Below the pieces are notes generated by a model. That model was given only the letters and a program-made list of their open reading frames with translations. It was not told the DNA's origin and did not search any database. From positions 1 through 64,000 of IMG/VR virus record IMGVR_UViG_3300047310_000431: a stretch of DNA of 64,000 nucleotides; one strand, given 5' to 3'. The stretch is from a virus. Made by a program: the position numbers and the translations under genes. Of this stretch, positions 10,920 to 46,549 are shown one piece after another (within the stretch, counting starts at the first letter, position 1; each line of letters starts with the position of its first letter).

Positions 10920-13900
10920 CAGAAGCTCCCTTGAATGCTAAGAGAGCCCCTGATCGGGTTGTTACCGCCCGCTCCACCACCCGTCCCGTTCATGCCGCCG
11001 CTCAACGCGCCCACGCCCTGACCGAGACCCTGCGGTGTCGGCGGCGGCATCGGCATGACGGAGTTGGCCATGTTGTTCAGGACGTTCTGCGGCTGGCCGG
11101 TATTGCCGGGCATGCTGGGCGGAACCTGTGCCGATTGTGGAGCCATGCTCCAATCCGCAGGTCTCCCCGTGAGCCAGTCAATTGGGCTATCGATCAACTG
11201 ACGAGGCTGTCCGTCGGGACCGTTCTGTCCCCACTGCGGCGTGTTCATGACCGACCCCATCGATCCCGGCGGACCGTTCTGTCCCCACTGCGGCGTGTTC
11301 ATGACCGACCCCATCGACCCCGGCGGCTGCACAGGCCCGCCGTCATCGAAGCCGGGGACGTAGCCGCCCATCGCGTAGTTCATCACATGGTAGCCAAGCA
11401 TGTCGTCGTCGACCGAACCGCCCGCGGCGTATATTGGCGGAATCTCCGGAACAGCAGCGCCTGCGCCACCCGCTCCACCCGCGCCGCCGAACATCTTCGC
11501 GATCATGGGCAGCGCGCTGAGACCCATGTTGAAGGCGCTCGATCCGCTGGAGCCCTGCCCAGCCTGCCCTGCACCCTGCGGCGCGGGCAGCGGAGGAAGC
11601 GTCGGAGGAGGCTGCACCTGTTTCTGCCCCGGTACATCGCCGAACTGGTCGACCGCGCCGGGGATGATGCCCTTGACGAACGCCATCGGGTCGCCACCGA
11701 GACGCGCAGACAGCGCTCCGCTTCCGACTACGCCCCCGTCGTCGAACTCAGGGAGACGGCGAGGGAAGTTGTCCCTGAGAAGATTGTACATGCCACTGAT
11801 TCCTTTTTTGATCGGCACAGTCTGCTCATCGGCCGCGTGCTTGATCTTGGCCATGTAGCTCGGCGCTGGATTTAGAAAAGAGGAAGCCATCGACATCAAC
11901 GGCTGGGTTCCCATCTGGAACGGCAGAGTCGTAGCGAAGGGCAGCACATCAGCAAGATCACGCAAGCCCGGATGAATGTTATCGCGAGCACCCTGCGTCA
12001 TCGCCTTCTGTCTGCCCACCTCGGCCGCATAGTCAAGCTGGTCGGGGTTCGTACCGTAGCGTGCAGCGATGTTATGGCTCAAGCCTCCGCTCATGTTCTC
12101 CAGCAGGATGCGGTTCATCATGCCCAACTGGCTGTTGGCCTGATCATTAGGGTTGTACTCTTTTCCTGACCACAACTCAGCCTGATTGGCCCTGTAATCA
12201 GAAATGCGCTTACCAAGATTTCCGAGATAGGAGCGCACGGGGTCCGTGCGTGTACCTGCATTCTGTAGGCGCTCCATCGACGCGCGTCTCTCGGCCGCGG
12301 TCGGCGTCAACCGGAACTCGCCGAAGTCGTCGCGTGGATTGCTGAAATTGTAATCGGTCGTGCCGATGGCCGGATAATCTGAATCGGGCGGACCGCCATC
12401 TTGGAAGTGCTGTACCGGACCGCCCTCCGCCTTGTTGTAGTCATCCCACGCGAAACTCGGCAGCAAACCAACCTTCTGGTCGGCATAGACGGTATCGTCC
12501 TGCGACGCTCCCCGATTGCGCTCGGCGTAGGGGCCGAAATTGGCCCATGAGTTTTGCCCGCGCAGTTCGCTGGTCATGGCGGGGATCGCATCGTCGGAGT
12601 AGAGCCGCGCATGGGCGCGCCATGCGCGATCCTCGCCCTTGTGACGGAAGTACGGATTGCCCGGTCCGAAGTGGCCGTACATGTCGTGGACGATGCGAAA
12701 GGCATCGTTGACCCGCGCATCTGGCAGGTCGCCAATCTGGCCCGCCTTCGTCATCTCCAGCGGATGATTGAGCGTCTCGTTGACCGAACCGAAGCCACCC
12801 TCGGTCGGGAACACCTTGAGCCGGTTGTTGGCCAGCACGTCGTGATAGCCCAGAGCGGGCGACTCCTTGTAGGGGTTGCCCTCGCCGGGCTTGAGGAACT
12901 CGAACTGCGTTCCGAGCGGCCGAAGCGCCCTGTACTGATCCATCGTCTCGTCGATCAGCGCCTCGTAGGAGCGCTTGGTGGCGGGATCAAACGGATTGTG
13001 CTGCATCGACTCGTAGGCCTCGGCGACCTTGCGGGCACGGTCCTCGTCGAAGGCCGGGAACGACTCGACAGGATAGTCTCTGCCCTGCTTGCGCGCGAAA
13101 CCGCCCGCGATGTCCTCAATCTCCTTGATCGGATAGCTCGGCATCTCGCCCACGCCGGGCAGCTTGACCGTCTTGGGCTTGCCCTCGGCCAGCCTGTTGA
13201 GAGTGCTCAGGACGCCCTTCTTGACGAAGCCCTCGGGACCGCCGAACTCGGGGACCATGCCGCCCTCGTCGTACGCGCCCGCCTTGCCGGTGATGATCAG
13301 ATCGCGCGCCGTCTCGGGTGACACGCCGAGTCGTTGCGCTGCCTTCATGATCTGACCAGACAGCAGTTCCAGCTTGGGCGAGCCGATGGTGCGCACGCCG
13401 GTTTGCGGCCCCAGCACGTTCCAGATCATCGCCTGAAGATCGCGCGGGTACATGTCGACTTTTCTGCTGGCCTGCTGCCACCACGGCAGGAAGTCGTCGT
13501 ACTCTGGGTTGGTCAGTTCCTTGAACAGACTGTCCTGAGACTTGGCCGTTCTCACATCGCCGTAGCCAACGCCGCGAGAAATGTGCGAATCGGCAATTGG
13601 ACTGCGCGGGTCGGACCAGATCGGATCGGTCGCCTGAACGTACGTCGGCACCTTGTGCCGGTCACTCCACAGCTTGCCGCTGGCTTCGAGGTTGATCAGG
13701 CCGGGGACATGCGCGGTCGTATGGTAGGCGTGGCTCGGCGCATCAAGCATGTCGGGAGGGAAGTTCTCCATCTCGTAACGACTCGGGATGTAGACGCCCT
13801 TCTTGGTCGAACCCTTCTCGCTGACACCGCCGAAATTGACGTAGTCTCCGAGCCGCCCCTGCTCGGCCATCATGTTGGCCAGCGTTCCTCGATTGGTCTC

Positions 13901-16900
13901 CGATACCGGTGACGCGCCCGCCGAATGCAGTCCGGTGCGCGCGTTGAACATGCGCTGATAGGCAGGATCGGTACCGAGGTAGCTCATGCGATCCCACAGC
14001 GGCTGCATCTCGTACCACGACCGCGTCAACCTCAATGTCGGATCATCCAGAGCCGCCTCGGCGATATTGGTGATGCGGTTCATGTTGCGGCCGGTCAGGA
14101 CCTGCGGCGATATCGCCGAACCGCGCCCGTTCTTGGGACGATAGGCGGGCGGTACCAACAGCAGGTTGGAGTAGTCACGCGCCGACTGCATCTCGTCCAG
14201 TTCATTGCGCCCGACACCGAACAGGCGACGCATAGCCTCCTCATCGCCCGCGTCGTACTTGGCCTTGGCCTCCGCGATAAGCTGAGATGGTGGTTTATAG
14301 ATGCCGGGGAAGCTGAGTCGTCGCGGATCATCAACCGTCTGGATGCTCGGCACCGGATTGAGCAGGATCGGCGCAGACTTGGGCTTGCGTGCCGCGTTGA
14401 GTTGTTTTTCCTGTTCGTTGAGCCGGGCAATGCGACGGCTCAATGCGGCCTCGGCTTTATCCTTCAAACCAACCTGTGTCAGAGCACCGACGTCGCTCAG
14501 GTCCGCGCCGCTATTGTCGGGTGCATTGCCGATGTCGCTCAGGTCGGCTGATGTATCGTCGGGCGCGTAGCCGATTTCGCCAAGACCACCAAAGCGATAA
14601 TTGCGCACGGCACCACCCTTGGATTTCTCGCGGTTGACGATGTCGATCAGGTCGGACGACTGCGGGAAGACAACGTAGTTGCGCGTGTCGCCCGATCCCT
14701 GACGACTGAACTTGTCGAGAAAGCGAACACCGGGGAAGCCTACTTCACTGAGATACGCTGACGTGTGCTTCTTGGGATCAGTGTCGCCACGCATCCAGTC
14801 GGAGCCCATCAACGATTCAGGCAACGACTCGTGGACATCGGGGGTCGTCAAAGAATGAAACAGTTCCCTGCCCTCATAGGCTCCGGGATCGGCGCTGAAT
14901 GGATTGAGGCCATGATTTTCAACGTGATAGTCGAGTGCGTCCCGCACCTTTGGATGAATGCGGTTCCATGTGTTTGAATCGACCGGCGCATCCCAGTCGA
15001 AGAACTCGCTCGGCTTGGCGTTAAGGTCGAGGTGATAGAGCCAGCCCGGCTTCTGCGTGCCGTAGCCGGGAGGCAGGCCCTCCATGATCGCCTTGATGTT
15101 CTCAGGCGAGTAGCGTTCGCCGCCTGCGCGTACGCCGAGACCATGCGCGATTCTTGATTCATCTTCGCCGCGAGCCGCACGTTCCCTGATCGACTTGGCG
15201 AGCAGGGAAAGCATGCGCGGGTCTTCGTCGTAAGGCAGATGCATGCCCGCCAGCGACTCAAGGACACGCTGCGATTCAAGATCGTCGACCGGCAATCCGT
15301 ACTTCGCCCAGCGACCGGGACTATCGCCCTTGCCTGCGGTGATACGGCGATACTCCTCGGCGACTGCCGGGTTCTCGGCCGAGTAGAACCCGTGACCGAA
15401 AGCGGCGCTGCCTTCGCCCTTGCCGATGAACGCCGGATCGAACTTGTCGAACTTGTAGGGCGAGCCGGTATAGGTGCGTATCTTGTTGAGCGCGCCCTTG
15501 ACGATGCCGGAGCCAAGGCCCTCGAAGTGCTGGACCGTGCCACCCTCGGCAAGCCACGGCCCGGTGAACTGGGGCAGCGTGTCCTCGGTGAGGCCGCGCG
15601 TGACCAGCGGATCGTAGGCGGCCGATTCGGGAATGACCTTACCGGCCTGCGAATTGAGCAGCTTGCGGAACGCATTGACGCCGCCCTCGGGATCGGCCGC
15701 GGTGTTCTGGTAACCGAAGCGGTTGCGTGCCTGATCGGACGGCTGCACCGAGAGCAGCGCCTTGTCGTACTGCATCATCTCGGCCTGCGTCATCATGCGA
15801 TGACGTCCGTCGTGTCCGACAACCATAGGATACTTGCCGATGGTCGGGGGCCCGCCAAGACCCTGCAGGAAGGCGTGCTCGCCGGTATTGCCGAACCGCA
15901 GCAGCGGAACCTCGTCCCACTTGCCTTCCCTGCCGACAGCGGCGTACTTGCGCAGCACGTCCTGAATGTTGCCGCGCTCGCGGTCGAACATCGAGAAGTG
16001 CGCGGCGTTGCTGTAGTCGGGGCTGTTCAGCGTCGCCAGCGGGATGCGCGGTGCGAGGTTCTTGAACTCCCACGGATCGATGACAGTCAGCAGGTTGGGA
16101 ACGTCGAGGGGAACATTCTTGTATCTGTCCCAACCCAACGACTCGTTCAGCGCGTGCTTGTCGAACAGCGATATGTCCGCGCCAAGGTCGGCGGCGTCGC
16201 GGAGCCGCAGCGCGCCCTTCTTGCCGTGGTTCTGCTCGACGAACTTCAGGCGGTCTTCCAGCGACATCGCGCCCGGCGACTGGATGTTGGGCGTCGGCAC
16301 AGGCCGAAGGAACGACGCCAGATCGGATGTCGCGTTGGTCGTCGGTCCCCACGTCGACGGAGTCGTCGGGAACTGCGGATTCGCGGCGACGAATGGATTC
16401 GGCTCCGGCATCTTCTTCAACTTGGTCTTGTCGATGTCGGCCAGCGCTGCGAAACCCTTCCTGACGATCTGGCTGCCCTTGCCCTCGAAGTGCTGCAACG
16501 CACCGCCCTCGGCGAACGTCTTCTCGCTGAACGACAGGGGTGGGCGATACCCGCCGGGGAAGCCGGTGGGCTCCGGCGTGAACTCGGTGCCCGTGCCCTG
16601 CGGGAAATAGGTCCGCATGAGTCGTTCGATGACCTCGTCAGGTTCGCCCACCTGATCAGACAACCGCGAAGGCTGGATGTTGACCAGCGCCTTGCCCTCG
16701 TTCATGCGCGCCAACATACGCATGCGGTGACGGGCTTCGTGGCCTTCGACCCAAGCCTTGTCGTCGGGGATGTTGGGGTCAGGCTCTCTCAGCCATAGCT
16801 GGCCGGGCTCCGATAGACCGCGCTTCTCTGCGTTCAGCCGCAAACCTGAAAGGTAGGCGTCGAGCGTCCGCTCGGTATGACCCGGCGGCAGAGGAAAGTT

Positions 16901-17191
16901 AAAATTGGTACGGCCGTAGGGTATTTCATTGGGCTGCATGATGGGCCGGGCGAACGACTCGAACTCACCCGGCGGCATCGCCATCAGCAGGCCTGCATTC
17001 TGTATTTTGGAGCCGCCGTAGTTTGGCGTCGACCCCATCAGGTTGCTCAGGCTCTTGGGGTTCCACAGGCCGAGGTTGACGCCTTCATCACCGGCCTGAA
17101 TCAGTCGCTCGGCCTGCGTCTTGCCATACTTGCGCTCGACGTCGGCGATGACGTCGGCGACCTTGCTGAATCTCGTAAGCCTGCCAGCCAT
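10919..17191 (-). CDS. Giant polyvalent virion protein with ADP-ribosyltransferase-like domain
   Basis: About 2,090 aa from the ATG at 17191 (a TTG four codons upstream is less likely). Two related N-terminal modules (residues ~10-250 and ~310-560) each start with a helix (VERKYGKTQAERL; VEQNHGKKGALRL), contain a GHxxRHRM motif, and end in AEGGxxQHFEGxGSxIV. Residues ~573-850 resemble ADP-ribosyltransferase-type domains of phage polyvalent proteins: TYTGSPYKFDKF, GEGSAAFGHGFYSAE, GVRFLDKFSR, RNYVVFP. Further conserved-looking segments lie near residues 1257 (DLQAMIWNVLGPQ) and 1500 (FRIVHDMYGHFGPG, RGQNSWANFGP). The end is Gly/Pro-rich with an 18-aa repeat. Such proteins are thought to be packaged and injected to act on the host early in infection. 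Confidence 0.72.
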   Translation of the reverse strand: MAGRLTRFSKVADVIADVERKYGKTQAERLIQAGDEGVNLGLWNPKSLSNLMGSTPNYGGSKIQNAGLLMAMPPGEFESFARPIMQPNEIPYGRTNFNFPLPPGHTERTLDAYLSGLRLNAEKRGLSEPGQLWLREPDPNIPDDKAWVEGHEARHRMRMLARMNEGKALVNIQPSRLSDQVGEPDEVIERLMRTYFPQGTGTEFTPEPTGFPGGYRPPLSFSEKTFAEGGALQHFEGKGSQIVRKGFAALADIDKTKLKKMPEPNPFVAANPQFPTTPSTWGPTTNATSDLASFLRPVPTPNIQSPGAMSLEDRLKFVEQNHGKKGALRLRDAADLGADISLFDKHALNESLGWDRYKNVPLDVPNLLTVIDPWEFKNLAPRIPLATLNSPDYSNAAHFSMFDRERGNIQDVLRKYAAVGREGKWDEVPLLRFGNTGEHAFLQGLGGPPTIGKYPMVVGHDGRHRMMTQAEMMQYDKALLSVQPSDQARNRFGYQNTAADPEGGVNAFRKLLNSQAGKVIPESAAYDPLVTRGLTEDTLPQFTGPWLAEGGTVQHFEGLGSGIVKGALNKIRTYTGSPYKFDKFDPAFIGKGEGSAAFGHGFYSAENPAVAEEYRRITAGKGDSPGRWAKYGLPVDDLESQRVLESLAGMHLPYDEDPRMLSLLAKSIRERAARGEDESRIAHGLGVRAGGERYSPENIKAIMEGLPPGYGTQKPGWLYHLDLNAKPSEFFDWDAPVDSNTWNRIHPKVRDALDYHVENHGLNPFSADPGAYEGRELFHSLTTPDVHESLPESLMGSDWMRGDTDPKKHTSAYLSEVGFPGVRFLDKFSRQGSGDTRNYVVFPQSSDLIDIVNREKSKGGAVRNYRFGGLGEIGYAPDDTSADLSDIGNAPDNSGADLSDVGALTQVGLKDKAEAALSRRIARLNEQEKQLNAARKPKSAPILLNPVPSIQTVDDPRRLSFPGIYKPPSQLIAEAKAKYDAGDEEAMRRLFGVGRNELDEMQSARDYSNLLLVPPAYRPKNGRGSAISPQVLTGRNMNRITNIAEAALDDPTLRLTRSWYEMQPLWDRMSYLGTDPAYQRMFNARTGLHSAGASPVSETNRGTLANMMAEQGRLGDYVNFGGVSEKGSTKKGVYIPSRYEMENFPPDMLDAPSHAYHTTAHVPGLINLEASGKLWSDRHKVPTYVQATDPIWSDPRSPIADSHISRGVGYGDVRTAKSQDSLFKELTNPEYDDFLPWWQQASRKVDMYPRDLQAMIWNVLGPQTGVRTIGSPKLELLSGQIMKAAQRLGVSPETARDLIITGKAGAYDEGGMVPEFGGPEGFVKKGVLSTLNRLAEGKPKTVKLPGVGEMPSYPIKEIEDIAGGFARKQGRDYPVESFPAFDEDRARKVAEAYESMQHNPFDPATKRSYEALIDETMDQYRALRPLGTQFEFLKPGEGNPYKESPALGYHDVLANNRLKVFPTEGGFGSVNETLNHPLEMTKAGQIGDLPDARVNDAFRIVHDMYGHFGPGNPYFRHKGEDRAWRAHARLYSDDAIPAMTSELRGQNSWANFGPYAERNRGASQDDTVYADQKVGLLPSFAWDDYNKAEGGPVQHFQDGGPPDSDYPAIGTTDYNFSNPRDDFGEFRLTPTAAERRASMERLQNAGTRTDPVRSYLGNLGKRISDYRANQAELWSGKEYNPNDQANSQLGMMNRILLENMSGGLSHNIAARYGTNPDQLDYAAEVGRQKAMTQGARDNIHPGLRDLADVLPFATTLPFQMGTQPLMSMASSFLNPAPSYMAKIKHAADEQTVPIKKGISGMYNLLRDNFPRRLPEFDDGGVVGSGALSARLGGDPMAFVKGIIPGAVDQFGDVPGQKQVQPPPTLPPLPAPQGAGQAGQGSSGSSAFNMGLSALPMIAKMFGGAGGAGGAGAAVPEIPPIYAAGGSVDDDMLGYHVMNYAMGGYVPGFDDGGPVQPPGSMGSVMNTPQWGQNGPPGSMGSVMNTPQWGQNGPDGQPRQLIDSPIDWLTGRPADWSMAPQSAQVPPSMPGNTGQPQNVLNNMANSVMPMPPPTPQGLGQGVGALSGGMNGTGGGAGGNNPIRGSLSIQGSF
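11219..11326. repeat. 54-bp tandem repeat inside the giant gene
   Basis: Two adjacent, nearly identical 54-bp units (one substitution noticed) encode PGSMGSVMNTPQWGQNGP twice. The frame is kept, so the protein gains 18 residues per copy. The high identity suggests a recent slippage or recombination event; copy number may vary between relatives. Confidence 0.85.
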
Positions 17192-19713: not shown

Positions 19714-20148
19714 ATGAACATCACTCACTTCACGATGGAAGAGTTCCTGATCAGCGATACCGCCGAAAGCATCGGGGCGAACAACTACCCGACGTGGGAG
19801 GTCGCCAAGAACCTCGAACGACTCGCCACCGTTATGGAACACGTCCGCAACGGACTGGGGGCCAGACCCGTCACTATCCTGTCGGGCTACCGCTCACCGC
19901 CGGTCAACACGGAGGTCGGCGGTGCGACCAACTCGGCCCACCTCTACGGACTGGCCTGTGACTTCGTGGTCAACGGCCTCACTCCGCTGGAGGTATGCAA
20001 GGCCATCGAACCGCACATGGCGATGCTGGAGATAGATCAATTGATCTGGGAATACGGCGACTGGGTCCATCTGGGACTAAGCGAAGGTCCGGCCCGGTGT
20101 CAGTGCCTGACCATCAACAACGCAGGAACCTCTGAGGGTTTTCCATGA
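19714..20148 (+). CDS. Endolysin, peptidase M15 family
   Basis: A 144-aa protein that probably cuts peptide cross-links of peptidoglycan at lysis. The M15 zinc site is visible: SGYRSPPVNTEVGG, with H76 in NSAHLYGLACD, D83 in ACDF, and H119 in WVHLGL. It has one catalytic domain, typical of phages of Gram-negative hosts, and no signal peptide, so release depends on the holin. It begins ten bases after the putative holin and overlaps the next gene by four bases. Confidence 0.87.
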   Translation: MNITHFTMEEFLISDTAESIGANNYPTWEVAKNLERLATVMEHVRNGLGARPVTILSGYRSPPVNTEVGGATNSAHLYGLACDFVVNGLTPLEVCKAIEPHMAMLEIDQLIWEYGDWVHLGLSEGPARCQCLTINNAGTSEGFP

Positions 20149-24528: not shown

Positions 24529-25022
24529 GGCTTAACCTTGTCGATAGCTGCTTGGGCGCGGGCTGCCAGCAGTTTGTGCAAATCGTTAACGAAGGATGTC
24601 GTCTCGGCATCAGCCGCGACCGTGACTGGCTTGCAGATGTCATGGAGCGCTTCCAGCAGGATGCGGATGGTGGCGTCGGCCTCGCGCTGGTTCCATGCAG
24701 CGATGGCTTCACGTTGACCCGTCTTCACGGGTCCATCGGCCTTGCAATTGTTGCACGTCAGATAGTTTCCGTCCGGAAGTGTCTCGCTGTCGCCCAAAGA
24801 GATATTGAAACTGAGACAGAACGGACAGGGATGAAAGGGATGGGGCCGCCGGTTCCATGCAGCGATGATTGTGGAGCGCTGGTTGCTGGTGACAGAGGTC
24901 GCCCAGCAACTCTCGCATTGCACTCGCAATAACTGTGTGTGGACGTTGGGCGAAATCTTCAGAGCATCGCTACCGCAGAATGGGCACAGCAACAGCGTGT
25001 CCTGTTTTGACGCTGTGGTCAT
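24525..25022 (-). CDS. Lar-like restriction-alleviation protein with two zinc ribbons
   Basis: A 165-aa protein with two copies of the Lar-type ribbon. The first is LLCPFCGSDALKI with VQCESCWATS and IAAWNRR. The second is HPCPFCLSFNISL with LTCNNCKADG and AIAAWNQR. The fixed phrase AWNxR after the second Cys pair is diagnostic of the Lar family, named for the E. coli Rac prophage protein that eases type I restriction and boosts modification. Tandem copies are less common than single. A helical C-terminus follows. It overlaps the methyltransferase-like gene by four bases, so the pair may act together against host restriction. Confidence 0.75.
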   Translation of the reverse strand: MTTASKQDTLLLCPFCGSDALKISPNVHTQLLRVQCESCWATSVTSNQRSTIIAAWNRRPHPFHPCPFCLSFNISLGDSETLPDGNYLTCNNCKADGPVKTGQREAIAAWNQREADATIRILLEALHDICKPVTVAADAETTSFVNDLHKLLAARAQAAIDKVKP

Positions 25023-25936
25023 CTCACTCTCACGATCTGAGTTGCGTTAACGACTCGGTGCCCGAACACAAACCATGCGAAGTCGACCGCGCCGCTGTGG
25101 CCTTGGTCGGGCACGCCGGGCGGCAGCATCTTGAGTCGTCCGCAGATGATGATCTTGTGCAGATGCTTCAACAGGTCGGCGCGCTTTTGGGCGGCGATCC
25201 ACGTCAGCCGCAACAGCACACACACCTTGCCATCGCTCGGGATGATCTTGAGCGCGTGGCGCACATGATCGTCGCTCTGGTCGAATGGAGGATTCATAAT
25301 TATGCTGTCGGTCGTTCCAAGACATCCTATGAAGTCATATCCATACTTGACTTGGGTGCGCATACCGTCAATCGGCACATAGACAAACTTGTCGCTGCCA
25401 TGCGCCCGCTGACCGGCATGGATCAGCGCCTTGACGATCTTGCCGCGCCCGCAACTCGGGTCCCACATCACGCCGGTCAGCGTCACGTTGCTCAGTAGAT
25501 GATCGACCGCCTCGTCAGGCGTCTCGTAGTTGTCACGCTCGTCGCGCTCGTTGTCCATCAGACCGTACTGGCCTGCCGCACGACGTGCGCGCCTCCTGAG
25601 AATGTTAACACCGTCATCGAGCGCCCTCCGCAGATGATTGGTGACAAGACGTCCTTGGTCGCGCTTGGGTTGGTTCTTAACCTGTATCTTTATGCCGCGC
25701 CGCTGGACCTCGGCCCTGAGCAAACGCAGTTCATCTTCAAGCGATAACTTAGCCGTGTCCGTTCGTCCTGCCGTTCGTGATGCGCGGGCCTGCGAGCGGG
25801 TCGGTGAGGTCGCGCTCTTCCGGCTGGTCGTTGGTGGTGGCGAGTCTTTCGCCGCGCTCTTGGCTGTCTTGCGCTTCACGTCGGGCTGCCTCCATGACAT
25901 CACGTCGCCGGGCAGTATCACTATCCTGTCGCTCAC
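25019..25936 (-). CDS. Adenine DNA methyltransferase-like protein
   Basis: The catalytic part starts near ERDNYETPDEAVDHLL. It has motif I DPSCGRGK (159-166 from the longest start) for S-adenosylmethionine binding and motif IV NPPF (215-218), typical of N6-adenine methyltransferases. The start is uncertain: the longest frame overlaps the upstream gene by ~190 bases with a basic low-complexity stretch, while an ATG at 25558 would leave only the domain (179 aa). The 25559-25748 stretch (LSLEDELRLLRAEVQRRG) looks coding, so a start upstream is favoured. Paired with a Lar-like gene, it may protect phage DNA or mark it. The target sequence cannot be read. Confidence 0.7.
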   Translation of the reverse strand: MSDRIVILPGDVMSWRQPDVKRKTAKSAAKDSPPPTTSRKSATSPTRSQARASRTAGRTDTAKLSLEDELRLLRAEVQRRGIKIQVKNQPKRDQGRLVTNHLRRALDDGVNILRRRARRAAGQYGLMDNERDERDNYETPDEAVDHLLSNVTLTGVMWDPSCGRGKIVKALIHAGQRAHGSDKFVYVPIDGMRTQVKYGYDFIGCLGTTDSIIMNPPFDQSDDHVRHALKIIPSDGKVCVLLRLTWIAAQKRADLLKHLHKIIICGRLKMLPPGVPDQGHSGAVDFAWFVFGHRVVNATQIVRVR

Positions 25937-28860: not shown

Positions 28861-29847
28861 TCAATATGTCATGTAGCGTGGTCGTGCGCGTGGCCTGCGC
28901 GGTTGCATCCGCTTCCAGCGCTCGCGCCGGAGAAGCCTGCGCCAGTGCTGGCGCAGGTCGTAGTCGCGCTCGACATTCTCGATGTGCCCGACCGCCCATT
29001 CCCGGAGATAGTCAAATTCACGATTGACCGCGTCGGCGTTGTCGATGTCGTGGATGCTGGCCAGCATCATGCCCATCATGCGCGTCATCGCCTCGAAGCG
29101 GGTGATGTCGGTCTCGCCGTGATTGATCCGGCGGGCCGGGAGTTCGTCCATCGGCACCACGCGGGAAAAGCCAAGAAGATTGGGTTGTTCTTCCGAGTCG
29201 TTCGCCGGACCCTGACCCTGCTCGGTACGCGCGCCGCCCAGCCGCTGCTCGGCGTCTTCGACCGCCAGCAGGCTGTCGGTCTGGTAGGCAATCGTCACCG
29301 GCATCGGCGCGCCCTTGCGGTGGACGCTGCCCGCTATCCTGATCGGCTGGTGAGGGCTCTGGAACGAGCCGTCGGCCTGCACATGATCGGCGGCGGCACG
29401 ACGCAGCCGCGCCACCCGCGGTGCCGCGCAGTCGCCGCTGAGTCGCCAGAACAGATGCGTCTTGGGCTGACCGTCGAGCAGGCCGCCGGAGTGGACGGCC
29501 AGTGCGGGCGATCCCAAGAGTTCGATCAGCCTGATGCACTTGCCTGCGATATCACCGGTATCGAAATCGACACACAGGGTCGGCAGGCTGACGACATCGG
29601 CGGCACCCGCCGCGCGCCCGCGTACAAACCCCGGTACGCAATACGCCGCCAGTCCGCGCTGGTCGCAGATTCTGGCGAAATCGACCACGCCCTCGATCCA
29701 GTTGGCATGGAACGGGTTGATCCACGGCGTGTAGGGCACGCCGTCTTTGCCGCGCTCGGCGTAACCACGAAGGGCAATCAGGCTGCCAAGTGGCGGATTT
29801 TCAAAGACAATTTGGCAATATTGCCGAATAGCGACAGGATTAAGCAC
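28861..29847 (-). CDS. Primase-polymerase-like protein (archaeo-eukaryotic type)
   Basis: A 328-aa protein with a GTG start and AGGAG seven bases before it. The motifs follow the pattern of phage RepB-like/prim-pol AEP primases: acidic VDFDTGD (residues 93-99), then HSGGLLDGQPKTHLFWRLSG (~119-138) with the conserved small-residue/His motif, and PIRIAGSVHRKGAP (~168-181). It would make RNA or DNA primers. It heads the leftward operon that includes the VapE-like helicase. A perfect hairpin lies just before its ribosome binding site. Assignment rests on motif order and neighbourhood. Confidence 0.68.
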   Translation of the reverse strand: MLNPVAIRQYCQIVFENPPLGSLIALRGYAERGKDGVPYTPWINPFHANWIEGVVDFARICDQRGLAAYCVPGFVRGRAAGAADVVSLPTLCVDFDTGDIAGKCIRLIELLGSPALAVHSGGLLDGQPKTHLFWRLSGDCAAPRVARLRRAAADHVQADGSFQSPHQPIRIAGSVHRKGAPMPVTIAYQTDSLLAVEDAEQRLGGARTEQGQGPANDSEEQPNLLGFSRVVPMDELPARRINHGETDITRFEAMTRMMGMMLASIHDIDNADAVNREFDYLREWAVGHIENVERDYDLRQHWRRLLRRERWKRMQPRRPRARPRYMTY

Positions 29848-30018: not shown

Positions 30019-30070
30019 AACTGTTTGTGGGGCACACACCGATGGACCACCACGGACAGTACATCAATAA

Positions 30071-30151
30071 TCCTGTCGATTGTTGTTGACGTCCCATAGA
30101 GTTCCATGAGATAACATTTTCCTCGGGCGACAGAGCCCGCAACCCAAGGAG
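30071..30151 (+). promoter_or_regulatory. Rightward promoter-leader module 1
   Basis: TCCTGTCGATT box (30071-30081), TTGACG (30086-30091), 18-base spacer, GATAAC (30110-30115), leader hairpin CGGGC/GCCCG (30124-30139), then AAGGAG (30146-30151) before the ATG at 30161. It matches module 2 over ~80 bases. It probably starts early expression of the small plus-strand genes. Confidence 0.8.
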
Positions 30152-31710: not shown

Positions 31711-31750
31711 CCCGCCCGGTGGTTCCAGCCATCGGGCGGGTTTATTTTTG
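31711..31750 (+). terminator. Strong intrinsic terminator ending the module-1 operon
   Basis: CCCGCCCGGTGG and CCATCGGGCGGG pair over 12 bp (one G-T pair) with loop TTCCAG, followed by TTTATTTTTG. The T-run ends at the base before promoter module 2, so each early operon is insulated. Confidence 0.9.
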
Positions 31751-31831
31751 TCCTGTCGATTTCTGTTGACGTCCCATACGGTTCCATGAGACAAGCTGTT
31801 CCTCGGGCGACACAGCCCGCAACCCAAGGAG
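31751..31831 (+). promoter_or_regulatory. Rightward promoter-leader module 2
   Basis: Same register as module 1: TCCTGTCGATT (31751-31761), TTGACG (31766-31771), 18-base spacer, GACAAG (31790-31795), CGGGC/GCCCG hairpin (31804-31819), AAGGAG (31826-31831), then ATG at 31841. The -10 is weaker than module 1 (C for T). Confidence 0.8.
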
Positions 31832-36169: not shown

Positions 36170-36269
36170 AGTACACAGTCCCTTTCTTCATACCCTATTT
36201 GGCGTAGTCGACGCCGGGCAGAGTGGCGACCCGGCGGTTGTACAGGACCGAAAAGGGCTCGTCTACATA
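36170..36269. other. Intergenic stretch upstream of the SSB operon
   Basis: About 100 bases with no gene. It must hold the leftward promoter for the gene at 36169; TAGGGT near 36193 on the minus strand is the best -10 candidate, with no convincing -35. Confidence 0.35.
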
Positions 36270-36364
36270 AATCGACAGGAAAAAATCGACAGGAAAGATT
36301 TGACGTCGAGTCGTTTCCGTGAGATAAGCTGCCTACCGGGCGACACAGCCCGCAACCCAAGGAG
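36270..36364 (+). promoter_or_regulatory. Rightward promoter-leader module 3 with doubled operator box
   Basis: AATCGACAGGA occurs twice, at 36270-36280 and 36284-36294. Then come TTGACG (36300-36305), a 17-base spacer, GATAAG (36323-36328), hairpin CGGGC/GCCCG (36337-36352), and AAGGAG (36359-36364). A GAGTCGT motif lies inside the spacer. It drives the amidoligase gene. Confidence 0.8.
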
Positions 36365-36371
36365 ACTGCAT

Positions 36372-37658
36372 TTGACCAACTTTCGCCAATTCGGGATGGA
36401 GTTCGAGACCTTCAACGAGAACGTCCCCACCGGGGGCCGTGGCCGCACCGGGGCGTCTGGCCTCAAGATCGCTGCCGCCATCAATGCCATGGGCTTTCAG
36501 GCGGTCTCCACCGAGCGCCACTTCGACACCAATTACCGCGTGTGGCAGGTCAAGCCCGACGTCACCGTGGCCCCCACCAAGGGCGGCCTCGAAGTCGTCT
36601 CGCGCACCCTGCCGGGCACGCAGGCGTCGCTCGACGAGGTCACCAAGGTCTGCAATTGGCTGGAATCGAACGGCTACGACGTCGACGTGTCGTGCGGCTA
36701 CCACGTCCATATCGATGCCGGTGACCTGACGTCCTACGAGTGCGCCGCCATCGCCCTGCGCTACCATCACTGCCAAGTCGACATCAATGGCATCCTGCCG
36801 CCGTCGCGTCGTGGCGGCCAGTGGGCCCAGAACCTGACCGGCAGCAGCCTGAACAAGATTCTCACCACCATCACCAGCGGCGAGCGCTCGCAGCGTTGGG
36901 ATTCGCGCGAACGCTACGTCAGCGTCAACCTCCAGCACGTCGCCAACGGCCGGTCGAGCCGCCGCATCGAGTTCCGCCAGCACAGCGGCACGGTCAACGC
37001 CAGCAAGGTGATCGGCTGGTACAAGTTCCTCTGTGATTTCGTCGCCGAGACGCTGCGCCTGCTGGCCGAGATTGGCGGTGGCGCGGTGACCACGCCGACC
37101 AATGCGCCCACCATCATTCGCCAGCAGACTCGCCGCCGCTCCGGAGCGCGCACGGTCAGCATCGTGACCGGCACCACCATGTCGCCGCAGGTCCCGCTCA
37201 TCGATCCGAACACCGACTACGATTGCTTCCTGCGCACCATCGAACAGAACGGCGTCATCACCACCGATGACGCGCGCACTTTCGGCTGGATGGATGGCGG
37301 CACCAACAGCACCAACAGCCGCCTGCGCGTGACCGCGCACTGGCTGCGCCGTCACGGTGCCGAGTTGCTGACCACTCAGCGCAACGGTGAACTGGCCTAT
37401 GTCGGCGTCAATGGCGCACGCACCCGTGCGCAGATTTTCACCGCCCCGGCGCAGATTCGCCAGCGCGTGACGGTGTCCGGTGCGCCGAATGCCGCCGCCG
37501 CAGTGCCTACCACCACCCGCCAGCGCGACCTGCTGCATAAACTGTCGACGACGGACGTGATGTCCGGCCTGTCGACCGAAACGGCGAGGTGGTTCTCGGA
37601 CCGCATGATAGAGATCGCCGCGGCCGACGCCCGCCGCGCGGCGCGGAGGACCATCTGA
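36372..37658 (+). CDS. Amidoligase (ATP-grasp COOH-NH2 ligase) family protein
   Basis: A 428-aa protein from a TTG start eight bases after AAGGAG. The Amidoligase_2 pattern is clear: GMEFETFNE (8-16), GGLEVVSRTLPG (~71-82), SCGYHVHID (107-115) with the conserved CGxHVH metal/nucleotide site, and RRIEFRQHSGT (~197-207) ending the domain. Members are thought to ligate carboxyl to amino groups using ATP. The C-terminal ~190 residues look like a separate winged-helix-like region. The next gene encodes a gamma-glutamylcyclotransferase-like protein, a pairing described for predicted phage peptide-modification systems. Confidence 0.82.
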   Translation: MTNFRQFGMEFETFNENVPTGGRGRTGASGLKIAAAINAMGFQAVSTERHFDTNYRVWQVKPDVTVAPTKGGLEVVSRTLPGTQASLDEVTKVCNWLESNGYDVDVSCGYHVHIDAGDLTSYECAAIALRYHHCQVDINGILPPSRRGGQWAQNLTGSSLNKILTTITSGERSQRWDSRERYVSVNLQHVANGRSSRRIEFRQHSGTVNASKVIGWYKFLCDFVAETLRLLAEIGGGAVTTPTNAPTIIRQQTRRRSGARTVSIVTGTTMSPQVPLIDPNTDYDCFLRTIEQNGVITTDDARTFGWMDGGTNSTNSRLRVTAHWLRRHGAELLTTQRNGELAYVGVNGARTRAQIFTAPAQIRQRVTVSGAPNAAAAVPTTTRQRDLLHKLSTTDVMSGLSTETARWFSDRMIEIAAADARRAARRTI

Positions 37659-38509
37659 TGACCGACGCCATCCCCATGACCGTCCTCAAGGTTTCCCACC
37701 ACACCCCCAAGCACATGGCCGAGCGCTATCCCTACGCGGGATACGGCAGCAACCTGTGGATGTCGCAGATCACCGAGCGCTGCCCGCATGTCGAATTGGT
37801 CATCGCCGGGCGCATCCTCGATCATCGGCTCGATTTCGCCCGCGTCGCCACCATCACGCAGGACAAGACGTCGACCGTGCCGGTGGGCATCTACAGGCTG
37901 ACCGCCGACGACATCGAGAAACTCGACCGCAAGGAAGGCTTGGGCAAGGCCTACGACCGCTACCTGATCACGCCTATCACCGACGACAACCGTGCGCTGC
38001 GCTGCTTCACTTACATCAAGCGCGACCCGACGCTGGAGCCGCCGACCGACAAATACTTCATGAAGCTGGTGGCAGGCTACCGCGACTGGCACTTCGACGA
38101 CCGCCGCCTGCGCCATGCGCGGTCGCGCGCCGCGGCGGCGTGGTTGGCCGGTGCGCCGGAGCGTGACAGAAAACGCAACGCCGATATCATCGCCGACGTC
38201 GAGCGCATCCGCCAGAAGTATGTCGGCAAGAGCGCGGGTGAGGCGTGGCGTCAGGGCGAGATGTGGGAGCCGGTGGACGACGTCGAGCCGGTTCGCCCCA
38301 AGCGCTACGTCACGATGCGTCACGATGGCGTGGAGTTTGGCACGCGCGACGGCGTTTTCTACTTTCGCCAGTTGGGCACACGGGTATGGTATCGTGACGT
38401 TTCTGGACACGAGCATATCAGCAGCGGCATGGTGTGCGGCGAACTGGCCGAGAACCTGCCCGGTGCCAAGGCCTACAAGCCCATCGACAATAAGCGAGGC
38501 AAGAAATGA
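37658..38509 (+). CDS. Gamma-glutamylcyclotransferase-like protein (283 aa)
   Basis: The first ~130 residues match the AIG2/GGCT fold: YAGYGSNLWMSQI (26-38), HRLDFARVATI (~56-66), VPVGIYRLTADDIEKLDRKEG (~75-94) with the catalytic-type Glu93, and a following aromatic strand YDRYLITPI. Enzymes of this group release gamma-glutamyl groups as pyroglutamate. The C-terminal ~150 residues are a separate Arg-rich helical and beta region not typical of the family. It overlaps the amidoligase stop by one base (TGATG), so the two are almost certainly made together and may form and remove a glutamyl-type linkage. Confidence 0.8.
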   Translation: MTDAIPMTVLKVSHHTPKHMAERYPYAGYGSNLWMSQITERCPHVELVIAGRILDHRLDFARVATITQDKTSTVPVGIYRLTADDIEKLDRKEGLGKAYDRYLITPITDDNRALRCFTYIKRDPTLEPPTDKYFMKLVAGYRDWHFDDRRLRHARSRAAAAWLAGAPERDRKRNADIIADVERIRQKYVGKSAGEAWRQGEMWEPVDDVEPVRPKRYVTMRHDGVEFGTRDGVFYFRQLGTRVWYRDVSGHEHISSGMVCGELAENLPGAKAYKPIDNKRGKK

Positions 38510-38658
38510 AATACCGGGTCGTCTTGGCGATGAACATAATCTACGAGATAGAGGCTGACAGCGAGGACGCGGCGGTCAAGGTCGCTGTCGGAAAGACACC
38601 CAAGGAGGTCGACTACGTTGAAGTTGTCGAGGTCGCTGTCATGCCTGAAGCGCATTGA
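38506..38658 (+). CDS. Small hypothetical protein (50 aa)
   Basis: MKYRVVLAMNIIYEIEADSEDAAVKV, then GKTPKEVDYVEVVEVAVMPEAH. It is a ferredoxin-like strand-helix-strand mini-protein of the sort seen often in phage early operons (VxIEADSExxA). Overlaps both neighbours closely: ATGA with the cyclotransferase, and the DNA polymerase begins three bases after its stop. Function unknown. Confidence 0.6.
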   Translation: MKYRVVLAMNIIYEIEADSEDAAVKVAVGKTPKEVDYVEVVEVAVMPEAH

Positions 38659-38660
38659 CA

Positions 38661-40622
38661 ATGGTCAGACGAATCGAAGACCCGCGCCAGAACAGCCTCG
38701 GCCTGAACGAGCCGCTGCGCACGTTTACGCCGCCCGCCGGTTGGGCAGTTCAAGAGTCGTTCCCGGAACTGGAAGGGATCGTCGCCATCGATCTTGAGAC
38801 CAAGGACATCGGCATCACCAATGGCGTCGGTCCGTGCTGGCCGCATCGCGGCGAAGGCTTCATCTGCGGCGTCGCGATCTGCTGGCGGCGCAGCAAGTTC
38901 TATGTGCCGCTGATGCATGCCGCCGGGAACCTCGACCCTGACCGGCATCACCGCTTCTGGGTGTGGCTGAAAGAGCAGGCCGAGAAGCCTGACGTCACGT
39001 TCGTGATGGCCAACGCGGTGTACGACACTGGCTGGCTCAGGCGGTTGAGCATCGTGCCGCACAACCCGCCCATCGACGTGCAGGTCATGGCATTCCTGCT
39101 CGACGAGCACCGCATGAGCTACTCCCTGTCGTCGCTGTCGAAGCACTACCTGCACCGCGACAAGGGTACGCTGACGCTGTTCGACATGGCCAAGAGCCTG
39201 CACATCAAGCATCCGATGTCGAACATGGACAAGCTGCCTGCGTGGATCGTCGAGCCCTACGCGCTGGACGACGTCGACCTGACGTACTGTCTCTACTACG
39301 ACCTGATCCCCAAGATTGCCGCCGAGAAACTGGGCGAGCCGCTCAGGCTGGAGAGCGAATGCACCATGGTCTCGGTCGACATGCGCTGGGAAGGCGTGCG
39401 GGTCGATCAGCGACGACTCGAACTTCTTGGCGCGCAATTCGCCCTCAAGGTCGAGCGCGCTCTGGCACAGATCATCGATCTGACCGGTATCCGGGTCGAG
39501 CCGTTCGACAACGGCGAAGCGATGAAGGCACTGCGTGCGGAGAACAGCGCGGTGCAGTTTGGCATCACCGAGAAAGGCCGCGACAGCGTCGACCGCTTCG
39601 CCCTGCAGGCCATCGGCTCGCCGGTCGCCATGGCGATCCTCGAAGCGCGCAAGTACGAGAAGGCACGCGGCACATTCGTCGAGTCGTTGGGTCATTACAT
39701 CCGCAACGGACGCATCCATGCCGAGTTTCATTCAACGAGGAATAACTCCTCCAATAACGACGATATGTTTGGCGACGACTCGATGTATGGAGCAACGTCA
39801 GGCCGCTGGGCGTCGTCGCATCCCAACCTGCAGAACATCCCGGCCCGCGACGACGTGATAGGCCCGGCCGTGCGCTCATGCTTTATTCCGGAAGACGGCG
39901 AGCGCTGGCTCAAGTTGGACTACGCATCGCAGGAGCCGCGCCTCACCGTCCACTTCGCCAGCATGGCGACGATCAACGGCAACCGTCTCACGGGTGCCGC
40001 CGAGATGGTCGAGCGTTTCCAGAAAAACCCGATGACCGACCTGCACGGCGAATGTGCCGCCCTGATGGGCGTCTCTCGCGCGCAGGCCAAGACGATCAAC
40101 CTTGCACTGGCCTACGGCATGCAGGGCGGCGCGCTGTGCAAATCTCTCGGACTGCCCACCAAGACCATGACGATGTTCAACGGAAACGAAATCGAAGTCG
40201 CGGGCGATGAAGGCGAGATACTCCTGCGCAAGCACTTCAATGCAGTACCTTTCGTCAGGCAGTTGTTCGATCTGGCCAAGCACACGGCGAAGTCGCGGGG
40301 CTACGTCAAGACCATCACCGGCCAGAAGATTCGCTTTGAGCGGTATGCCGATGGCAAATTCGCTCGCGTTCATAAGGCGCTCAATGGCGTCATCCAAGGC
40401 TCTGCCGCGGGCCAGATGAAGATGGCGCTGGTCGCCCTGCGCCGGGAGAACATGCCGGTCAACCTGACGGTCCATGACGAGGCCGATTGCTCGGTCCCCA
40501 TGGGCGAGGCGGGAGAGATACTGATCGACCGCATGACGACCATCATGGAGGAGGTCATAAAAATCGCCGTGCCGATGGTCGCCGAGGCCAAAACCGGGCC
40601 ATCGTGGGGGGAGTGCAAATAA
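38661..40622 (+). CDS. DNA polymerase, family A with 3'-5' exonuclease
   Basis: A 653-aa phage DNA polymerase. Exonuclease motifs: DLET (D44, E46), NAVYDTGWL (D122) and YALDDVD (Y200, D204). Polymerase motif A LDYASQEPR (D420), motif B RAQAKTINLALAYG (R473, K477, Y485), motif C VHDEAD (H605, D606, E607). All catalytic residues are present, so it should proofread and synthesise. Motif A has DYASQEPR where Pol I has DYSQIELR, as in T7-like enzymes. The ATG is chosen three bases after the upstream stop, over an upstream TTG. It is encoded on the opposite strand from the primase and VapE helicase. Confidence 0.93.
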   Translation: MVRRIEDPRQNSLGLNEPLRTFTPPAGWAVQESFPELEGIVAIDLETKDIGITNGVGPCWPHRGEGFICGVAICWRRSKFYVPLMHAAGNLDPDRHHRFWVWLKEQAEKPDVTFVMANAVYDTGWLRRLSIVPHNPPIDVQVMAFLLDEHRMSYSLSSLSKHYLHRDKGTLTLFDMAKSLHIKHPMSNMDKLPAWIVEPYALDDVDLTYCLYYDLIPKIAAEKLGEPLRLESECTMVSVDMRWEGVRVDQRRLELLGAQFALKVERALAQIIDLTGIRVEPFDNGEAMKALRAENSAVQFGITEKGRDSVDRFALQAIGSPVAMAILEARKYEKARGTFVESLGHYIRNGRIHAEFHSTRNNSSNNDDMFGDDSMYGATSGRWASSHPNLQNIPARDDVIGPAVRSCFIPEDGERWLKLDYASQEPRLTVHFASMATINGNRLTGAAEMVERFQKNPMTDLHGECAALMGVSRAQAKTINLALAYGMQGGALCKSLGLPTKTMTMFNGNEIEVAGDEGEILLRKHFNAVPFVRQLFDLAKHTAKSRGYVKTITGQKIRFERYADGKFARVHKALNGVIQGSAAGQMKMALVALRRENMPVNLTVHDEADCSVPMGEAGEILIDRMTTIMEEVIKIAVPMVAEAKTGPSWGECK

Positions 40623-40660
40623 TTATAAATGATAAATAATCATTAATAATCATCCTAAAT
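40623..40660. other. AT-only-like tract before promoter module 4
   Basis: About 38 bases composed almost wholly of A and T with a repeated AATAATCAT core (TTAATAATCAT and ATAATCATTAA) directly after the polymerase stop. It could be an UP element for promoter module 4 or a DNA-unwinding part of an origin. Confidence 0.45.
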
Positions 40661-40738
40661 AATCGACAGGATTGTTGACATACCCAACTGGACGTGAGAT
40701 ATAACGCTTCTCGGGCCACACGCCCACAACCCAAGGAG
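40661..40738 (+). promoter_or_regulatory. Rightward promoter-leader module 4
   Basis: AATCGACAGGA (40661-40671), TTGACA (40675-40680, a perfect -35), 17-base spacer, GATATA (40698-40703) in GATATAAC, weaker GGGC/GCCC hairpin (40713-40725), then AAGGAG (40733-40738) and ATG at 40749. It should be the strongest of the four, preceded by the AT tract. Confidence 0.82.
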
Positions 40739-40748
40739 ATTTCAAGTC

Positions 40749-46084: not shown

Positions 46085-46549
46085 ATGACAAAAACCACAT
46101 CCTATCTCGTCTTCGTCTACGGTACTCTCAAATCGGCTTACGGAAACAACCGGGTCATGACCGAGGGTGGTACCGCCAAGCTGCTGGGCAAGGCAACTAC
46201 CTTGTCGAAATTTTATATGGCAGGCGAGGGGATTCCTCGCGTCGCCAAGCAGGTCCTCGGTGACTTCCCGGCCAGTCTTGACCGCAACGACTACAGCGGT
46301 CAGATCAGGGGAGAACTCTGGCAGATCGATTCCGAGTCGCTGAAAAACTGCGACCGGCTGGAGGGCCACCCGACGTTCTACAAGCGCGAGCAAATTCCGG
46401 TCACCCTCGACAAAGATCGCTCGCGCCACACCGCGTGGCTGTACTTCATCGTCGAACCGTTCCGGGGGCATCTCTGCTTCGCGAAGAACAAGAGCGGCGT
46501 TCTGGAATGGCCGTCGGAACGCCAGTATAGAATGTCCCGCCATGCATAA
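46085..46549 (+). CDS. Gamma-glutamylcyclotransferase-like protein 2 (154 aa)
   Basis: A single-domain AIG2/GGCT protein: VYGTLKSAYGNN (11-22) is the substrate-binding loop, and CDRLEGHPTFYKRE (89-102) holds the catalytic Glu93 and its typical following aromatic-basic run. FVEPFRG-like C-terminus. The length matches the minimal family. A GTG fifteen bases upstream is a weaker alternative start. It is separate in place and sequence from the longer cyclotransferase at 37.7 kb, so this phage carries two such enzymes with one amidoligase. It is coupled to a tiny membrane protein gene by an overlap. Confidence 0.85.
   Translation: MTKTTSYLVFVYGTLKSAYGNNRVMTEGGTAKLLGKATTLSKFYMAGEGIPRVAKQVLGDFPASLDRNDYSGQIRGELWQIDSESLKNCDRLEGHPTFYKREQIPVTLDKDRSRHTAWLYFIVEPFRGHLCFAKNKSGVLEWPSERQYRMSRHA

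Follow-up and report, generated by a model that had tools for sequence, protein, structure and literature searches.

A coupled amidoligase and gamma-glutamyl cyclotransferase gene pair in a tailed phage, with a predicted winged-helix domain on the ligase

Results

The gene pair and its setting

An amidoligase gene and a gamma-glutamyl cyclotransferase (GGCT) gene lie next to each other in a 64,000-base stretch of viral DNA (the window), which is part of an IMG/VR virus record of 69,077 bases (IMGVR_UViG_3300047310_000431). Because it encodes a terminase, a portal-like protein, a family A DNA polymerase, and SNF2-type and VapE-type helicases, we assign the record, by its gene content, to a tailed phage. 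The closest named phages by terminase are the Caulobacter phages GB2A, RLK, KcrB and RW (45% identity), and the host is plausibly an alphaproteobacterium. Elsewhere, the window encodes a Peptidase M15 protein that is a probable endolysin (19714–20148, plus strand), a protein of 2,090 aa that matches no Pfam family (10919–17191, minus strand), and a 179-aa DNA methyltransferase-like protein (25019–25558, minus strand), which matches positions 207–367 of the 458 of PHROG 799 and is short for that family.

Table 1 Features of the gene pair, its surroundings and associated protein families
Feature	Position	Strand	Description
Tandem 14-bp repeat	36269–36296	+	AAATCGACAGGAAA, two copies in the divergent intergenic gap; possible operator
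Promoter-like element	36300–36328	+	TTGACG-N17-GATAAG; aligns with the g45, g40 and g58 leaders
Shared leader	36338–36364	+	GGGCGACACAGCCCGCAACCCAAGGAG; short hairpin and ribosome-binding site
Amidoligase gene	36372–37658	+	428 aa; TTG start, AAGGAGA ahead; TGA stop at 37656–37658
Predicted GS-fold amidoligase core	36384–37031	+	Amidoligase_2, residues 5–220
Predicted winged-helix domain	37215–37406	+	residues 282–345; α1-β1-α2-α3-β2-β3
C-terminal helix (predicted)	37575–37652	+	residues 402–427
GGCT gene	37658–38509	+	283 aa, YGSNL type; ATG start; stop at 38507–38509
Codon of catalytic glutamate E93	37934–37936	+	LDRKEG; invariant in 32 of 32 GGCTs
50-aa ORF	38506–38658	+	overlaps the GGCT stop
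DNA polymerase (family A)	38661–40622	+	in one gene run with the pair
Second cyclotransferase	46085–46549	+	154 aa, GGACT type, FVYGTLK
76-aa family members	L063:8717–8944; L006:4731–4967; L047; L095–L099; about 50 loci beyond L063		
Zinc-ribbon protein (PHROG 2945)	L008:4449–4667; L164:2938–3150; 18 more loci		

The original prediction, made from the sequence of the window, had placed both reading frames correctly and had recognized that they share a base: the A of the amidoligase stop codon TGA doubles as the A of the GGCT start codon ATG. Since a promoter-like and leader element precedes the amidoligase gene, the pair heads a rightward gene run that continues with the 50-aa ORF and the DNA polymerase gene. 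No family match or relative of the 50-aa ORF was found among the families searched and the loci compared, and the placement of the pair ahead of a DNA polymerase gene is not kept in relatives among the compared loci. Single-sequence searches of IMG/VR returned only one contig, 100% identical, and wider relatives (loci numbered with the prefix L) were reached with alignments; the pair region is identical in a second IMG/VR contig, 3300046516_001702.

Both enzymes retain their catalytic residues

Both proteins had been assigned to their families from short motifs, and profile searches bear this out. The amidoligase matches Pfam Amidoligase_2 (PF12224) over residues 5–220 (E = 1.3e-18; 68.2 bits against a cut-off of 22) and PHROG 2443, amidoligase (1.3e-17). 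It keeps the 12 residues that are invariant among 46 aligned phage amidoligases (G8, E10, E12, W58, D63, E74, G109, H111, H113, R146, E200 and R202); a further family residue, H204, is kept in the window ligase and replaced by alanine in its two closest relatives. In the structure model (mean pLDDT 77, with low-confidence linkers at residues 237–272 and 359–379), the core resembles the GS-fold ligases YbdK, glutamine synthetases and the Pup ligase PafA (Foldseek probability 0.94–1.0, E 5e-3 to 2e-2), and matches to viral amidoligases reach E-values down to 1e-11.

The GGCT matches Pfam GGACT/AIG2 (PF06094; E = 1.6e-5, 25.9 bits against a cut-off of 22.8) and PHROG 2520, gamma-glutamyl cyclotransferase (9.6e-20). 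The loop Y29-G30-S31-N32-L33 and the catalytic glutamate E93 are present. Across 32 GGCTs, Y29, G30, N32, D90, E93 and Y99 are invariant and the YGSNL motif is near-invariant overall; E93 aligns with the glutamate in the LDEQEG motif of human GGCT, which the model also resembles in fold (Foldseek E = 3.6e-8, TM 0.70 by target). Judged by these profiles and models, the first protein is an intact Amidoligase_2 enzyme, predicted to act as an ATP-dependent amide ligase, and the second an intact gamma-glutamyl cyclotransferase, predicted to release 5-oxoproline. Neither outcome that would have refuted the original prediction, a failed family placement or lost catalytic residues, was seen.

A second cyclotransferase, passed over in the original prediction, is encoded at 46085–46549 and is similar to gp22 of phage LUZ24 (32% identity, E = 3e-10). 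The records of L093 and L094 contain a second cyclotransferase as well.

The C-terminal region of the ligase

Both proteins had been described as carrying long, unexplained C-terminal regions. This description stands for the GGCT, whose model is of low confidence at residues 197–216 and 250–283 and whose C-terminal extension has no relative in any other locus compared. It no longer applies to the amidoligase, where a predicted winged-helix domain and a conserved tail helix make up the region, which is common to two related phages. Residues 282–345 are modeled as helix-strand-helix-helix-strand-strand (pLDDT about 70–88), the topology of a winged helix, and two helices follow. Foldseek matches to this part, spanning 66–81 columns and individually weak (E 0.5–1.6), are dominated by the winged-helix repressors AntR, MecI, CadC and HlyU and by F-112 of SSV1. 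The run G(L/I)..x(Y/W)F..R that opens the tail helix (residues 398–411) is conserved in most phage amidoligases, and R411 is nearly invariant.

In a single-sequence search, the ligase C-terminus is shared recognizably with only two other loci, L094 (E = 8e-7) and L093 (E = 7e-5), on contigs of 68–70 kb, and no relative of the ligase architecture was found in the cellular genomes searched. A profile of the region scored 27–29 against DUF3489-like modules of other phage amidoligases (hhalign probability 62–76%). The controls peaked at 19.5 (100 column shuffles) and at 22.1 (92 unrelated families). The domain of L094 matches the DUF3489-like HMM at 1e-4. No match above controls was obtained with the AT-hook-associated set (A9), and no Pfam HTH family matches the window ligase. 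An apparent domain shared between g39 (28861–29847) and the L094 amidoligase was rejected: the match is local, arose by chance and falls outside the winged helix.

DUF3489 is listed in Pfam as a domain of unknown function, and a paper that assigns it to a SCOP superfamily leaves that superfamily unnamed where it mentions the domain, which it does once. Of 46 phage amidoligases, five have a DUF3489 match in Pfam itself, the best at E = 7e-18. With HMMs, a C-terminal DUF3489-like module was detected on about 15 of 103 non-redundant amidoligases and an N-terminal HTH-like region on 10 more, counts that are partly definitional because the HMMs were built from member sequences. An AT-hook-like RGRP motif stands just ahead of the module in five amidoligases, and the [RK]GRP motif is present in 6/103 amidoligases compared with 13/960 other long ORFs. 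Many phage amidoligases lack a recognized DNA-binding module. HTH, winged-helix or AT-hook modules, as predicted here, recur on other phage amidoligases, and these DNA-binding-like modules suggest that the ligase acts at DNA or regulates its own expression. We found no published description of these modules on phage amidoligases, which is not in itself proof of novelty.

The control region upstream of the ligase

The divergent gap ahead of the ligase gene is 202 bp long (36170–36371) and contains the tandem repeat, the promoter-like element and the leader listed in Table 1. The core of the repeat, ATCGACAGGA, is found again between genes at 30071, 31751 and 40662, and AAATCGACAGGA, allowing up to two mismatches, occurs 22 times against 4.0 expected. 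The TTGACG-N17-GATAAG element was not reported by a generic sigma-70 consensus scan; together with the leader, it aligns with the leaders of g40 and g45 and less well with that of g58. The GGGCGACACAGCCCGCAACCCAAGGAG leader has three copies in the window, with none expected in shuffles. In all, four similar promoter/leader elements with the ATCGACAGGA motif stand before rightward gene blocks (30040–30151, 31749–31831, 36269–36364 and 40623–40740) and probably represent an early or middle control signal that belongs to the phage itself. A role of the tandem repeat as private operator of the ligase gene was considered and rejected: with the same motif core and leader ahead of g40, g45 and g58, it resembles a control element in general use by the phage.

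Pairing across phages

The original prediction stated that such pairings had been published for phages, and five papers indeed describe them (PMC5498523, PMC11945000, PMC11318856, PMC11253131, PMC5513430); most of these descriptions trace back to Iyer et al. 2009. Our own survey, based on loci that were the best matches to the queries and that include related contigs, and thus not a random sample, gave the same picture. A cyclotransferase is present at 57 of 80 IMG/VR amidoligase loci (on the strand of the amidoligase in 55 cases and downstream in 54, with a median gap of 17 bp). Conversely, 68 of 78 GGCT-seeded loci hold an amidoligase, always upstream and on the same strand; eight of the other ten begin less than 300 bp from a contig end, so that 68 of the 70 loci that could be tested are paired. 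Named phages with the couple include Geobacillus GR1, Bacillus 031MP004, the Heliusvirales, Terrisporobacter TPDSL_ph1 and Arthrobacter Kovu. The pairing is already known in many phages, cultured ones included, and among the records checked some phage amidoligases have no cyclotransferase. Two tandem GGCT genes follow a single amidoligase gene at L104, L107, L110, L119, L121 and L156.

A conserved third partner enzyme was sought and rejected, as the neighbors differ between loci; with no conserved neighborhood, the surroundings point to no single pathway. At 51 loci, the gene immediately after the amidoligase gene (often within 20 bp) or after the GGCT gene encodes a member, at significant E-values, of a family of proteins of about 76 aa. 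The family has no PHROGs match and only a sub-threshold Pfam match, and its proteins might serve the ligase as substrate, carrier or regulator; the window contains no member. At L047, L063, L076, L077 and similar loci, which resemble Porphyromonas phage L006, a 76-aa protein lies downstream of an amidoligase with an N-terminal HTH-like region; among the records of such amidoligases that were checked, no cyclotransferase was found in L047, L063, L085 and L040. In Heliusvirales-like loci, the gene after the GGCT, mostly overlapping its stop, encodes a zinc-ribbon protein (PHROG 2945, about 68 aa).

Further enzymes accompany the two in the cassette typified by LUZ24 gp16–gp22, which we took as reference. 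No class II GATase (PF13522, GATase_6) was found in the 69,077-base record, which may be incomplete, by a search that was positive in all 14 control genomes. A COOH-NH2 ligase (PF14395) was likewise not found in the record, with a search that finds the LUZ24 and CW02 copies. The search for a RimK-type ATP-grasp protein (PF08443) found none in the record; it recovered the CW02 copy and missed the RimK-annotated gene of LUZ24. None of the three was found in the records of the two closest relatives either. As far as these searches go, the pair can stand alone.

Discussion

The window pair is an instance of a known pairing that had been read correctly at the family level. What is new here, as far as sequence comparison and models can indicate, is the predicted winged-helix architecture of the ligase, the second cyclotransferase, and the promoter/leader element shared with other gene blocks.

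Possible functions of the pair

The chemistry of GGCT and GGACT enzymes is established, and cyclotransferases require a glutamyl residue whose alpha-amino group is free. Starting from what was computed here (both folds, intact catalytic residues, the coupling of the genes, the conserved pairing, the predicted winged helix and the shared promoter/leader), our preferred, if tentative, reading is that the pair may be a cytoplasmic writer and eraser of gamma-glutamyl groups on an amine. In an ATP-driven step, the GS-fold amidoligase would form an amide between an amine and a carboxylate, which is most likely the one at the gamma position of glutamate. The cyclotransferase would cleave the gamma-glutamyl-amine bond, with the alpha-amino group of the glutamate free, into 5-oxoproline and the free amine, which would thus be tagged or protected only temporarily. 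The winged helix would either place the ligase at DNA or let it repress its own operon, as BirA does. We infer here the glutamyl donor, the reversal of the ligase's own product by the GGCT and the functional link to DNA. A shared substrate is likely in view of the fixed order and near-obligate pairing in phages, and writing followed by erasing would be the simplest reading, with a precedent, by analogy, in butirosin synthesis; against it, the ligase and the GGCT could act on different molecules.

A role in the cell wall has been published for phages of the phiEco32, RIO-1 and LUZ24 groups, where a cassette of amidoligase, GGCT, GATase, ATP-grasp and COOH-NH2 ligase genes was proposed to modify the peptidoglycan and to keep out superinfecting phages (PMC5498523, PMC11945000). 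Applied to our pair, the ligase would give peptidoglycan precursors an unusual peptide link and side-chain links would be degraded by the cyclotransferase, blocking superinfection. The cassette does contain both enzyme types, and the second cyclotransferase resembles its GGCT. However, the GATase, COOH-NH2 ligase and RimK-type partners were not found (the last by a search that also missed the LUZ24 protein), the paired GGCT has no BLAST similarity to LUZ24 gp22, and the two ligases are only 22% identical. The alpha-amino group of the stem-peptide D-Glu is bound to L-Ala, which disfavors this residue as a target since the cyclotransferase needs that group free, and a predicted DNA-binding domain would be unexpected on such an enzyme. 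We therefore consider a cell-wall role unlikely here, the published cassette reading fitting this phage poorly. An auxiliary metabolic function, in which the pair acts on free gamma-glutamyl amino acids, polyamines or thiols and shifts amine, glutamate or redox pools during infection, appears to us similarly doubtful. It would agree with the closest solved relatives of the two proteins (YbdK and glutamine synthetases for the ligase, the human enzyme acting on gamma-glutamyl amino acids for the GGCT) and with the PHROGs classification of GGCT among auxiliary metabolic genes, but if the two enzymes made and destroyed one free metabolite with no step in between, the cycle would be futile, and the predicted DNA-binding module would be left unexplained.

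Two further readings concern the winged helix itself. It might serve purely as a BirA-like autorepressor at the divergent promoter region (36170–36371), the enzyme chemistry being unrelated to DNA. The ligase gene does head its operon, and the gap contains the tandem repeat; yet the motif core and leader are shared with other gene blocks, as expected of a general control element, and no matching repeat was found upstream in L093 or L094, so we regard a purely autoregulatory role as quite unlikely. Very unlikely, in our estimate, is a fully DNA-directed gamma-glutamyl system, in which an interchangeable HTH, winged-helix or AT-hook module would bring the amidoligase to DNA to glutamylate DNA-bound proteins, polyamines or bases, with the cyclotransferase as eraser. 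DNA hypermodification by a thymidylate-synthase route was rejected: the record has no ThyA homologue, and ThyA occurs in 1 of 30 records searched.

The pair matters beyond this phage in that it recurs across many unrelated phages. For the accepted cell-wall reading, we found no tests in the literature, and the repeated attachment of differing DNA-binding-like modules to the ligase offers a different, testable clue to its target.

Comparison with known systems

In the protect/deprotect systems for butirosin synthesis (BtrJ and BtrG) and putrescine (PuuA and PuuD), a ligase puts a gamma-glutamyl group on an amine and a second enzyme takes it off. BtrJ is an ATP-grasp ligase, BtrG belongs to the AIG2/GGCT family, and PuuD is a class I GATase-like hydrolase. 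The likeness to the window pair is one of function only, and the known substrates are those of these two systems.

The LUZ24/phiEco32/RIO-1 podovirus cassette also combines an Amidoligase_2 protein with a GGCT-family enzyme, among early or replication genes. The ligase and paired GGCT of the window, however, belong to other subfamilies, and since the GATase and COOH-NH2 ligase were also not found, the pair does not appear, by sequence comparison, to be a member of this cassette type. In the set found in Arthrobacter cluster AL phages such as Kovu, the amidoligase gene likewise adjoins a cyclotransferase gene, and the ligase carries an HTH-like extra region, comparable to the predicted winged helix of the window ligase (PMC5513430). 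In contrast to the window, the gene order there is reversed (GGCT-amidoligase-GATase), a GATase is added, and the HTH-like region is N-terminal.

The two-gene pairs of PHROG 2443 and PHROG 2520 in Geobacillus GR1, Candidatus Heliusvirales gut phages, Terrisporobacter TPDSL_ph1 and C. clostridioforme prophages agree with the window in families, order, strand and adjacency, and in the Heliusvirales and Terrisporobacter phages the paired GGCT is likewise of the YGSNL type (PMC11318856, PMC11253131). The window pair differs from them in its one-base overlap, the predicted C-terminal winged helix of its ligase, the long C-terminal extension of its GGCT, and the additional GGACT gene.
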